Source: an uncultured Planctomycetaceae bacterium (lineage in GTDB: Bacteria; Planctomycetota; Planctomycetia; Planctomycetales; Planctomycetaceae). From it: DNA of 41,962 nt. Location of the stretch: positions 1-41,962 of the forward strand of contig CALFSX010000166.1 of NCBI GenBank assembly GCA_937916515.1. The letters are read 5' to 3'. Below, piece by piece: positions 6,352-9,310 of this stretch. Under the pieces are notes generated by a model, which worked only from the letters and a program-made list of their open reading frames with translations, had not been told where the DNA came from and did no database searches. Numbering within the stretch: the stretch's first letter is position 1; each line of letters opens with the position of its first letter. Position numbers and translations under genes: made by a program.

Positions 6352-7224
6352 CTAAGCAGCTGCTTTTAACGCCTGTGGTGAAACACAGGAAGCGTGGGCG
6401 ATAACTTCCAGAGTTTGTTTCAGTACGGGCGGATGCAGGTTCAATTCCTGTCGCAGACGACTGCAACGTAAAGACCGTTCGGCGCAGTTCTGGCTGATGG
6501 TGTTTGGTCTGATCTCTGCGGTGATGTTTTCCATGTTGCGAGTCAGCAATGTCATTAAACCGAACGGTGAAGTTCGTTCAGCACCGGAAATGTTAATGGT
6601 TCCGGTGACGTCTCTTTGCAGGCATTCCGTCAGCAATGCAGAGAAGTGTTCAGCGGCGATTGGTGTGGCGTAATTCTTCGCATCCAATGCAATTCGACGA
6701 CCGGATGTTAATGCGTTCAGGTGGTCTCCCAGAAACGAGTTGTCCTGCCAGTTCAACACGTTTGTTCGCACAATCAAAGATTGGTCCCGGTTTGAAACCA
6801 GTGTTTCGAACTTTATCAGCGACTTCGCGTTCTGGGTTGTCGCAAAATGGGAAGTGGCGAATGATTGGGCATCGTCCTGAAACATCCAGGGGCCGCTAAA
6901 CAACGCGTCGCTGGAAATATAGACCATGCGAGTGTTTGATTGAGTTGTTGCGGCGGTGCAATCCTTCAGCCAATTGAGTTCAGCATTGAAGTTGCCGAAT
7001 TGATGGTCCCACGAAGACCTGGAAGCTCCTCCGCAGAAGACGACAATGTCTGTGCCAGCAAGTTGTTCCAGCATGGAATGACGGCTGATGGCAACAGATG
7101 GGCAGTGTTTGATGGACACAGATTCTTCAAGCCACAGACCGCGAACGGAACAGCGAGTTCCAAGATAATGTCCTAGTGATCGCCCAACTAACGAATCAAT
7201 TCCAAGGATAAGAACGTGAGTCAC
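6352..7224 (-). CDS. RmlD-like NAD(P)-dependent sugar reductase/epimerase (SDR family)
   Basis: About 290 residues. N-terminal Rossmann motif VLILGIDSLVGRSLGHYL, then VVFCGG, a YISSDALFSG strand typical of RmlD (dTDP-4-dehydrorhamnose reductase) proteins, and later ATPIAAEHFSALL and TINISGAERTS. The usual catalytic YxxxK is not obvious, so the exact reaction is unknown. The start is set at GTG 7224 because a strong GGAGG lies six bases upstream; the TTG at 7248 would place that ribosome site inside the gene. The GTG lies inside the end of the preceding small minus-strand frame, which suggests coupling. Its promoter should diverge from that of leuA. Confidence 0.75.
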   Translation of the reverse strand: MTHVLILGIDSLVGRSLGHYLGTRCSVRGLWLEESVSIKHCPSVAISRHSMLEQLAGTDIVVFCGGASRSSWDHQFGNFNAELNWLKDCTAATTQSNTRMVYISSDALFSGPWMFQDDAQSFATSHFATTQNAKSLIKFETLVSNRDQSLIVRTNVLNWQDNSFLGDHLNALTSGRRIALDAKNYATPIAAEHFSALLTECLQRDVTGTINISGAERTSPFGLMTLLTRNMENITAEIRPNTISQNCAERSLRCSRLRQELNLHPPVLKQTLEVIAHASCVSPQALKAAA

Positions 7225-7489
7225 AACTTGCCTCCGGCGTGAGTTCAACGACTGCGTTTACATTCTTCCATGAATGATCAAAGCGGCGCAGTCGATAGGG
7301 TTGTAATTGTAGATCGACGACGGCAATCGATCCAGGAGAATTTCTGAAATCGACCGGGCCGTATTCAGTGAACCAGTTTGTATCGGCTGTGTCCGGTTGT
7401 TTGGCACGTGAAGCGACGTCTTCGGTCTCTGTGCGAATCTTTGCTGTGCGAGCAGAAATGACAGCGTTTTCCGGGATTTTCGTTGCCAA
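7196..7489 (-). CDS. Possible small hypothetical protein overlapping the SDR start
   Basis: 97 residues from a TTG. No family recognised. Codons show a purine-any-pyrimidine trend like real genes here, and the product contains a plausible stretch near the end (SIAVVDLQLQPYRLRRFDHSW). Its last 29 bases overlap the SDR gene, and the GGAGG of that gene lies within this frame, as in translationally coupled pairs. No strong ribosome site precedes the TTG, and the frame continues upstream for about 16 codons without an ATG. Confidence 0.4.
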   Translation of the reverse strand: MATKIPENAVISARTAKIRTETEDVASRAKQPDTADTNWFTEYGPVDFRNSPGSIAVVDLQLQPYRLRRFDHSWKNVNAVVELTPEASCDSRSYPWN

Positions 7490-7542
7490 ACGATCTTCTG
7501 TAGCTGAACAGAGAAGGAATTTTTCTGCCGGAGCTCAGGGGG

Positions 7543-7571
7543 TTGACCAACCGAGTTTTCGACTGTAAAGT
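7543..7571 (+). promoter_or_regulatory. Sigma-70-like promoter of the leu leader
   Basis: TTGACC (7543-7548, 5/6 match to the -35 consensus), a 17-base spacer, and TAAAGT (7566-7571, 4/6 match to the -10 consensus). The predicted start is near 7578, one base before the ATG of the leader peptide, so the mRNA may be almost leaderless. Read from sequence only; no start-site data. Confidence 0.65.
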
Positions 7572-7578
7572 CTTCCGC

Positions 7579-7626
7579 ATGAACACAACGTTATTACTCC
7601 TGAGCCTTCTTCTACTTCCATTGTGA
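7579..7626 (+). CDS. leuL: Leucine leader peptide of the leuA attenuator
   Basis: A 15-codon frame, MNTTLLLLSLLLLPL then TGA. Nine of the 15 residues are leucine, in two runs of four plus one. All six leucine codons occur (TTA twice, CTC, CTG, CTT three times, CTA, TTG). This is the hallmark of a regulatory leader whose translation senses charged tRNA-Leu. The stop codon is five bases before the predicted antiterminator arm, a promoter sits just upstream and leuA lies 118 bases downstream. No Shine-Dalgarno is visible before the ATG, consistent with leaderless initiation if the predicted promoter is right. Confidence 0.85.
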   Translation: MNTTLLLLSLLLLPL

Positions 7627-7631
7627 AGCAC

Positions 7632-7676
7632 GCCTCGGGTACGTAATTGCGAAACGTAAACTATCCAACCCTGAGG
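7632..7676 (+). promoter_or_regulatory. Predicted antiterminator of the leuA attenuator
   Basis: GCCTCGGGT (7632-7640) closely copies the 3' arm of the terminator (GCCTCAGGGT) and can pair with the terminator 5' arm ACCCTGAGG (7668-7676) with one bulge. An inner TACG/CGTA pair may stabilise the fold. Forming this stem excludes the terminator. A ribosome stalled on the leucine codons leaves the arm free; one that reaches the stop codon at 7624-7626 would cover it. Mechanism inferred from known amino-acid attenuators. Confidence 0.7.
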
Positions 7677-7695
7677 TTCTGCCTCAGGGTTTTTT
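7667..7695 (+). terminator. Intrinsic terminator (attenuator) upstream of leuA
   Basis: AACCCTGAGG pairs perfectly with CCTCAGGGTT around a five-base loop and runs into six T. It lies between the leader peptide and leuA, so it can only act as an attenuator of leuA. Confidence 0.9.
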
Positions 7696-7744
7696 AGTGT
7701 TTCCTGCAGACAGAACTTCGATTCCAGACCATCAGGAGTCAGCG

Positions 7745-9310
7745 ATGACCGGCGATCAGATCATCATTTTCGACACAACTCTGCGGGACGGCGAACAGTC
7801 TCCCGGCTGCAGTATGAACACTCGGGAAAAGTTGGAAGTTGCCAACGCACTTGTCGAACTTGGCGTGGACGTTATTGAAGCCGGGTTTCCCATCGCGTCG
7901 CCAGGTGACTTCGAAGCGGTGCAAAAAATTGCTCAACGCTTTGGAGATCGCAGCACGATTTGTGCTTTGGCGCGAAGCCTGGATGCTGACATCGCCAGAG
8001 CCAAAGAAGCATTGGCTGATGCCGCGAAAAGACGTATTCACGTTTTTCTTGCGACCAGTGCGATTCACCGCGAGCACAAGCTGAAGATGGACAAGCAGCA
8101 GATCATCGATCGAGCGATTTCGTCGGTTCTTGATGCGAAGTCTTTCTGTGATGATATCGAATTTTCTCCGGAAGATGCAGCTCGCACGGAGCTCGACTTT
8201 CTGTGCGAAGTTGTTGAGAAAGTGATCGAAGCTGGAGCCACCACGGTAAACATCCCAGACACCGTGGGCTATGCGACTCCCAATCATTACTTCAAGGTGA
8301 TTTCGTATCTGAAAAAGAACGTGCCGAATATCGAAAAGGCAATCATCAGCACTCACTGCCACAACGACCTGGGTCTGGCAGTGGCGAATAGTCTTTCTGC
8401 CATTGAAGCGGGCGCTCGACAGGTTGAATGCACGATCAACGGACTGGGTGAGCGAGCTGGTAATGCGGCATTGGAAGAAGTCGTGATGGCTTTGCGAACG
8501 CGAGCTGACTTTTACGGCGTTCACACGAATATCAAGACCGAACGATTGGTGCCAACCAGCCAGCTGGTGTCTTCAATTACCGGAATGAAAGTGCAACGGA
8601 ACAAGGCGATTGTCGGACAGAACGCGTTTGCTCATGAAGCCGGCATTCATCAGCATGGAATTCTGCAGGAACGTTCGACCTATGAAATCATGCGTGCCGA
8701 AGATGTTGGCTATGTTGGCCAGAATCTTGTACTGGGCAAACACAGCGGGCGTCATGCGTTTCGTGACCGTGTGAAAGAGCTGGGTTTTCAGCTTGACGAA
8801 GATGTGCTGCAAAAGGCCTTCAGCGACTTCATTGCGTTGGCTGACAAAAAGAAGGAAGTCTACGACTCCGACATCATCGCATTAATCGACAACCGTATTA
8901 CGGATGCGCCTGCTCGTTGGAAGCTGATTAGCTTTCATACGTCAGCCGGAACATCAGCCGTTCCCACCGCCACTATCGAACTTCAGTGCGAAGACCAACC
9001 AATTGTTTGCGACGCGGCAATTGGAGACGGGCCTATTGATGCTGTGTTTAAGGCGTTGGAACGTGTGATGGACGTTTCCGCTCGACTGGAAGAATTCAGT
9101 GTTCGCAGCATTTCTGAAGGTAAAGATGCATTGGGTGAAGTGCGAGTGAAAATTGACGTGATGGGGCGACACTATGTCGGAAAAAGTGTCAGCACAGACA
9201 TCATCGCCGCTTCTGCTGGCGCTTATCTGCAGGCGTTAAACAAGGCAGATGCTGATCGTCAATTCGGTGGTAGTTCTTCCGAAGAACGCATTCCGGCGAA
9301 AAGCCCATAG
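7745..9310 (+). CDS. leuA: 2-isopropylmalate synthase
   Basis: About 521 residues. Catalyses the first committed step of leucine synthesis, acetyl-CoA plus 2-oxoisovalerate to 2-isopropylmalate. Seen: [13 protein letters not shown] near the N-terminus (catalytic and metal-binding region), the [13 protein letters not shown] metal site (His about 204 and 206), [14 protein letters not shown], the [11 protein letters not shown] motif, and a C-terminal domain (about 380-505) matching the LeuA allosteric dimer domain for leucine feedback. ATG 7745 is chosen because GGAG lies six bases upstream; the frame runs 16 codons further up into the terminator region. Expression appears controlled by the upstream leader and attenuator. 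No leuB/C/D is adjacent. Confidence 0.96.

Follow-up and report, generated by a model that had tools for sequence, protein, structure and literature searches.

Introduction

The leu operon of enterobacteria is preceded by an attenuator (leuL; Rfam Leu_leader) that combines a Leu-rich leader with rare Leu codons, which serve as sensors, alternative hairpins and an intrinsic terminator before leuA. The branched-chain amino acid synthesis genes of Staphylococcus aureus reportedly have a leucine-rich attenuator peptide. Corynebacterium glutamicum is described as having, ahead of leuA, a leader in which four Leu codons stand in a row and, ahead of the DAHP synthase gene aroF, one with Phe-Tyr-Phe (PMC4046766). 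Transcription of its ilvBNC genes, subject to three-hairpin attenuation, is described as starting a single nucleotide away from the leader's start codon (PMC11857589). In 2010, leader peptide systems had, to the knowledge of the authors of a study that is cited here for this point and that added one in Firmicutes, been shown only in Proteobacteria and Actinobacteria (PMC2965389). For Planctomycetes, short leader genes have been counted and tied to reinitiation near the gene, as far as the account in PMC4833913 goes. Our search of the open-access literature for leader peptides or attenuation in planctomycetes found no report of such a system.

Here we describe a locus upstream of leuA in a planctomycete contig stretch of 41,962 nucleotides (the window). 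The kind of system is classical, namely peptide-leader transcription attenuation: a short ORF rich in codons for the end product, an intrinsic terminator between this leader and the first structural gene, and an antiterminator sharing the terminator 5′ arm just past the leader codons were all found, the covariation of the last being modest. The locus is like enterobacterial leuL in its Leu-rich leader with rare Leu codons, its alternative hairpins and the terminator before leuA, and unlike it in phylum, in lacking an Rfam match and in the probably leaderless reading in this planctomycete genus. It shares with S. aureus, a member of the Firmicutes, a leucine-rich leader for branched-chain amino acid synthesis. 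The leuA and aroF leaders described for C. glutamicum in PMC4046766 concern the same kinds of target in a different phylum, and cimA, a predicted target in planctomycetes, is not named for C. glutamicum in that account. The actinobacterial LEU element, as PMC1262725 describes it, likewise has a Leu-codon run in a leader ORF before leuA, but it consists of a pseudoknot and a stem between the Leu run and the Shine-Dalgarno sequence, whereas the planctomycete element has a terminator and no conserved leader-Shine-Dalgarno pairing. Within the literature searchable, the phylum, the sequence family and the cimA target look new.

Elements of the leuA locus

The predicted regulated gene (7745-9310, + strand; start ATG at 7745) encodes a LeuA protein of 521 aa, identified as 2-isopropylmalate synthase by an NCBIfam equivalog match (777 bits against a cut-off of 532), and is followed by mazG. 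Since the closest named LeuA relatives are Planctomycetaceae (one MAG at 80%; Schlesneria, Planctomicrobium and Thalassoglobus at 69-72%), the initial annotation, made from the letters alone, was right in calling the genome planctomycete-like.

Upstream of leuA and on the same strand lies a sigma-70-like promoter (7543-7571), assigned by consensus match only, with TTGACC at 7543-7548, TAAAGT at 7566-7571 and a spacer of 17 bases. It is followed by the leader peptide ORF MNTTLLLLSLLLLPL (7579-7626; codons ATG AAC ACA ACG TTA TTA CTC CTG AGC CTT CTT CTA CTT CCA TTG TGA, the stop TGA at 7624-7626), in which nine of 15 residues are leucine and the Leu codons lie at 7591-7617. Segment 1, CCTGAG within these codons (7599-7604), is the partner of segment 2, the antiterminator 5′ arm GCCTCGGGT (7632-7640), which begins five bases past the leader stop. 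Segment 3 (7667-7677), placed by the terminator scan and the family alignment, is the terminator 5′ arm and is common to the antiterminator; together with segment 4, the terminator 3′ arm (7681-7691), it forms a hairpin (7667-7691) of 11 pairs with a loop of 3 bases. A six-T tract at 7690-7695 is the predicted termination point, and the leuA Shine-Dalgarno sequence GGAG occupies 7735-7738.

The promoter, leader, arm, hairpin with six T, and GGAG with leuA had all been placed by the initial annotation where we find them, and its distance of five bases from leader stop to antiterminator arm agrees with the coordinates. It had also described the arm as copying the terminator 3′ arm; a copy it is, although it lacks one base (CCTC-GGGT against CCTCAGGGT), and the antiterminator consequently comprises 9 pairs plus a bulged U.

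The predicted fold of the 203-base region is 3.0 s.d. lower than those of its dinucleotide shuffles. The terminator scan by itself is unremarkable (one found against a shuffle mean of 1.2), and the promoter matches the consensus at 9 of 12 bases (one found against a shuffle mean of 0.4). What goes beyond chance is the combination of elements together with their conservation, not the terminator or the promoter alone.

RNA pairing and proposed mechanism

Three alternative pairings are predicted in the window: 1:2 (7599-7604 with 7634-7639, -8.8 kcal/mol), 2:3 (7632-7640 with 7668-7677, one bulged U, -14.2 kcal/mol) and 3:4, which is the terminator (-17.8 kcal/mol). A protector pairing of leader codons with segment 2 is thus present, an observation that applies to the window only, and there the pairing of the antiterminator arm with the terminator 5′ arm beat 99 of 100 shuffles. 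With the extent of ribosome cover on the RNA assumed to end before 7621 or 7639, RNA free from 7621 with segment 4 still unmade was predicted to fold into the antiterminator, and RNA free from 7639 into the terminator. When transcription of the region is complete, the lowest-energy fold predicted is the terminator, also if the leader is masked, and antitermination must therefore be kinetic, as is also the case in other attenuators.

Very probably, in our view, the element attenuates leuA transcription through a translating ribosome and in response to leucine. The sequence shows the parts, how they are conserved, the covarying terminator and the codon shift specific to the leader frame; from these we predict where transcription starts, that the leader is translated, that transcription ends at the terminator and that leucine affects this. 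RNA polymerase would start at or beside the leader ATG, with a ribosome close behind on the Leu-rich leader. When charged leucyl-tRNA is ample, the ribosome would arrive at the stop (7624-7626) and cover segment 2, or, alternatively, depart and let segment 1 pair with segment 2; with segment 2 occupied, segments 3 and 4 would make the terminator and transcription would stop near 7695. When charged tRNA-Leu is scarce, the ribosome would stall at the Leu codons at 7591-7617 and leave segment 2 free to pair with segment 3 before segment 4 exists, and leuA would be transcribed. The initial annotation had proposed this logic of masking and stalling, and at the level of sequence our tests support it.

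Conservation among leuA relatives

Eighty-four loci entered the leuA scan, 37 of which had been fetched around matches of a covariance model (R1), and 74 distinct leuA regions, 46 from protein searches, were scored by a fixed rule: a short ORF with at least five Leu in 12 codons and its stop close before a terminator. Of the 74 regions 56 passed this rule, whereas dinucleotide shuffles passed it once in 370. Among loci fetched by LeuA protein alone, 32 of 46 passed and the other 14 did not. The layout is present in all eight same-genus genomes (L001, L004-L010), and of the 13 further family loci that a LeuA protein search brought in (L011-L022, L024), 10 pass the strict rule; MSSLLLNLSLLLLPK, MQSLDLLNLNLLSLLESGRS and MNHNQLLLGLLLLPSSRRS are typical of the relatives' leaders. 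The arm lies just past the stop in the window's genus, while in 7 of 30 aligned elements it is exactly AGGTCTTAGG and spans the leader stop codon, which accounts for the RS ending of leader peptides.

Alignment of relatives bore out the expectation of the initial annotation that the Leu-rich leader frame and the hairpin pair would be kept, with the terminator covarying. The alignment used (A2) holds 30 sequences from 47 leuA loci at 60% identity or more (L012, L021-L032, L042-L044 and L048 were left out), and because these were picked for a clear leader and terminator, the existence of the elements in it is no evidence and the covariation is what counts. On A2, 95.3% of terminator cells are paired, against 21-59% for slid controls, and two-sided changes occur at 9 of 12 pairs. 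The antiterminator is paired in 87.0% of cells, against 21-64% when slid; its covariation is modest, with 3 pairs showing two-sided changes, a number equalled by 39 of 500 shuffles. In 28 of the 56 leuA elements, at most 5 of 100 shuffles paired as strongly as the arm does. Own-species arm pairing exceeded the cross-species mean in 38 of 56 leuA, 10 of 17 cimA and 3 of 5 DAHP synthase elements, which is weak proof of co-evolution because the arms are much alike between species.

Control genes placed by tblastn gave no passes of the Leu rule (ilvB 0 of 24 regions, trpE 0 of 24, hisG 0 of 22, two of 24 hisG loci having failed to be placed, and leuC 0 of 21, the open frame at locus L342 reaching the locus end with the upstream region out of view), nor did the Ile/Val, aromatic, Trp or His versions of the rule pass in any of those regions. 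Chance passes among control shuffles were 1 of 120 for ilvB by the Leu rule and 1 of 105 for leuC by the Trp rule. The idea of attenuation at every amino-acid operon is thereby rejected, ilvB, trpE, hisG and leuC having none by rule. The ilvB result differs from C. glutamicum, for which PMC11857589 describes Ile, Val and Leu codons at ilvB. The planctomycete arrangement also differs from the enterobacterial leu operon in that leuC lies on contig C313 and leuA on C166 of this fragmented genome, with no leuC leaders. A LeuA paralog (L002; G000:C268:30381-31436, + strand), 46% identical, occurs in the same genome and in many family members; by eye, the paralog of this genome has no attenuator region.

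Codon use in the leader frame

The rare codon CUA has a share of 25.1% among the 398 Leu codons of the leaders and of 0.5% among the 1905 of leuA, a comparison whose Fisher value overstates the evidence because the codon counts pool related species. For protein-fetched loci alone the share is 22.2% of 225 leader Leu codons, and CUA is absent from only 8 of the 56 leaders, occurring once or more in the other 48. The shift is specific to the frame: CUA accounts for 102 of 1344 codons in the leader frame, against 7 of 1288 and 2 of 1288 in the other two. Gemmataceae-like leaders (n = 13) favor CUU (47.1% against 11.8% in leuA), with CUA at 9.8% against 2.1%. The CUA shift would be hard to explain unless the leader frame is translated and decoding speed matters. 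Substitutions within the genus point mildly the same way: variable leader columns number 7, 9 and 12 at the three codon positions, which mildly favors coding, and codon differences comprise 101 synonymous and 153 nonsynonymous, a mild synonymous excess.

Promoter position

In the window, 7 bases separate the end of the -10 box from the leader ATG. At the best promoter-like site this gap is 6-7 bases in all 8 genus members, each of which has a TTGA-type -35 box and a 17-base spacer. At this distance RNA would start at or next to the ATG, and the leader in this genus is probably read from a leaderless mRNA, for which the ilvBNC start described for C. glutamicum (PMC11857589) is a precedent. The leaderless start is only a prediction, because the eight genus members are related and the null of the loose scan is high: a box 5-8 bases before the leader start was found in 19 of 56 leuA elements against 203 of 1120 shuffles. 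By the strict scan, a -10 box lies within 9 bases of the leader start in 4 of 56 leuA and 2 of 17 cimA elements. Leaderless starts are not universal, since in other family members (e.g. L011, L013, L014, L016 and L017) the boxes are about 27-33 bases away.

Further proposed targets: cimA and DAHP synthase

In the same genome, the citramalate synthase gene cimA (L003; G000:C188:17239-18762, - strand) is preceded by an ORF that includes VIIAIQIINICDVIVGSGF, an arm CCTGAGG and a terminator. Nineteen of 21 cimA regions have a terminator, and in 17, own genome included, an Ile/Val-rich leader lies beside it; leaders passing by Ile alone number 14 of 21, and Ile/Val shuffles 0 of 105. At most 5 of 100 shuffles pair as strongly as the arm in 12 of the 17 elements. 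Off-target passes among the 21 regions were one for Leu and four for His. Leaders of another family (RVIIIPIPHARRS or GRIIIGNPRRS) were found by the leuA covariance model, and the two attenuators therefore look related or strongly convergent; one model match before cimA (L237) has no Ile run. Our search for an isoleucine attenuator on cimA found none in print, returning a paper on valine production in a methanogen. The predicted system would extend a textbook regulatory mechanism to planctomycetes and add an isoleucine attenuator at citramalate synthase.

In planctomycetes other than this one, terminators before DAHP synthase genes (L223:120-259, L242, L244, L249, L251, L254, L262) follow leaders with many Trp, Phe and Tyr residues; one such gene has the leader MSCNAWRFWCYFTSPVPGAGGCA and a terminator. 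The aromatic (Phe/Tyr/Trp) rule was passed by 6 of 30 DAHP synthase regions against 0 of 150 shuffles, with one off-target Ile/Val pass among the 30, and at least three more (L247, L253, L255) have an aromatic-rich leader with no terminator by the scan. Of 5 elements, only 2 have arm pairing that at most 5 of 100 shuffles equal in strength. In the window's own genus, a search for that DAHP synthase family gave no match at the cut-off used. The TIGR01361 type of DAHP synthase is present in 19 of 29 genomes searched and was found in none of G000-G008 and G012 (the genus and two relatives) at E 1e-60.

Alternative explanations

Two other ways of reading a leader and terminator before leuA appear improbable to about the same degree. 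The first places control at translation or in a protein-dependent switch, as in the actinobacterial LEU element, with the Leu codons pairing with the leuA Shine-Dalgarno sequence. LEU elements precede leuA in most Actinobacteria according to PMC1262725, and in the window the leader ACTCCTGA (7596-7603) is indeed complementary over 8 bases to the Shine-Dalgarno region TCAGGAGT (7732-7739), a pairing matched by 0 of 100 shuffles. Over the whole set, however, only 3 of 56 elements have leader-Shine-Dalgarno pairing that at most 5 of 100 shuffles equal (median rank 61). The median distance from leader stop to leuA is 144 bases, and the element includes a terminator, a feature that the account of the LEU element in PMC1262725 does not describe. 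LEU-like pairing was rejected, being without conservation across the 56 elements, and because it is not kept in relatives the complementarity in the window is probably chance.

By the second reading, the terminator answers to another signal (a riboswitch, a T-box or an RNA-binding protein) and the leader peptide merely sets nearby translation. Attenuators of the same terminator logic do use many different sensors, but the residue enriched in the leader fits the pathway at leuA (Leu), cimA (Ile/Val) and DAHP synthase (Phe/Tyr/Trp), and since a peptide sensor predicts this, the fit at three genes counts against another signal; nor does any Rfam family reach threshold in the elements. Rfam models including Leu_leader and T-box gave no match in the window at 7000-8200 with E-values to 10, and at gathering scores the only Rfam matches in 18 loci were genes for tRNA and tmRNA, which lie outside the elements; a T-box or other Rfam identity was rejected on this absence of covariance-model matches.

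Least probable of all is an ordinary terminator or hairpin upstream of leuA with the Leu-rich ORF as a chance frame, for although short ORFs are common and chance alone would yield a terminator-like site in this stretch, the neighboring 5′ gene is on the opposite strand (6352-7248, -; sub-threshold RmlD match), so that no upstream transcript needs ending here, leader and terminator recur together well beyond shuffles in leuA regions, and the codon shift is confined to the leader frame.

Spread across planctomycetes and transcription-translation coupling

The design reaches beyond the genus. Searched with a covariance model of the element, 138 of the 198 class genomes give a match with an E-value no higher than 0.01. 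Its 30 best matches are all upstream of leuA and the weaker ones are mixed: 20 regions fetched at low-scoring matches lie before leuA (7), cimA (5) or DAHP synthase (1), with neither leuA nor cimA found in 7, and low-scoring matches can be ordinary terminators. Three model matches (L227, L229 and L231), where neither leuA nor cimA adjoins, have a similar stretch in common. It comprises a short frame, for which L229 has MSPVASRFITIIIAFSSQA, together with a terminator and an arm resembling TCAGGTCTTAAAG.

The element is carried by two named Pirellulales (L046, L049) and by Thalassoglobus neptunius (L036), a relative that can be cultured. Fifteen loci have a LeuA closest to that of named Gemmataceae, and 13 of them have a Leu-rich leader before the hairpin, nine of these (L343-L345, L347-L349, L351, L352, L357) with at least seven T in the eight bases after it. 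Ten of the 15 loci, all nine strong ones included, were fetched by model match. Among the protein-fetched ones, the T tract is 6 T broken by CG in L353 and L048 and 5 T in L356, and no Leu-rich leader was found beside the hairpin in L031 and L032. In Isosphaeraceae-like leuA loci (L023, L025, L026, L043, L044, L358-L362) the Leu-rich leader is mostly kept, and the T tract of the hairpin is poor or the hairpin was not found.

Throughout class Planctomycetia, peptide attenuation may be an ancient common means of controlling committed steps of amino-acid synthesis, acting on leuA for leucine, cimA for isoleucine and DAHP synthase for aromatic amino acids, with an arm AGGTCTTAGG across the leader stop and a peptide ending in RS in part of the species and leaderless reading in some lineages; its presence in Gemmataceae would then argue for coupled transcription and translation of these genes. 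We put this forward tentatively, as a reading about which the evidence is close to balanced and falls a little short, and the fact that the strong Gemmataceae cases are all model-selected has slightly lowered its standing. An attenuator needs a ribosome close behind RNA polymerase, and its presence in Gemmataceae-like genomes therefore bears on the separation of transcription and translation proposed for these cells. Attenuator leaders there predict coupling at leuA; if the reading holds, transcription and translation of the attenuated genes would go on side by side in Gemmataceae, whose cells have been proposed to keep the two processes apart, and the finding offers a genetic test of transcription-translation coupling.

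Across the phylum, 55 of 78 genomes searched gave no LeuA match at the cut-off used. Outside the class, 4 of the 18 genomes with a LeuA match (L297, L309, L310 and L311) show, in a slightly looser scan, a Leu-rich leader before a terminator-like hairpin.
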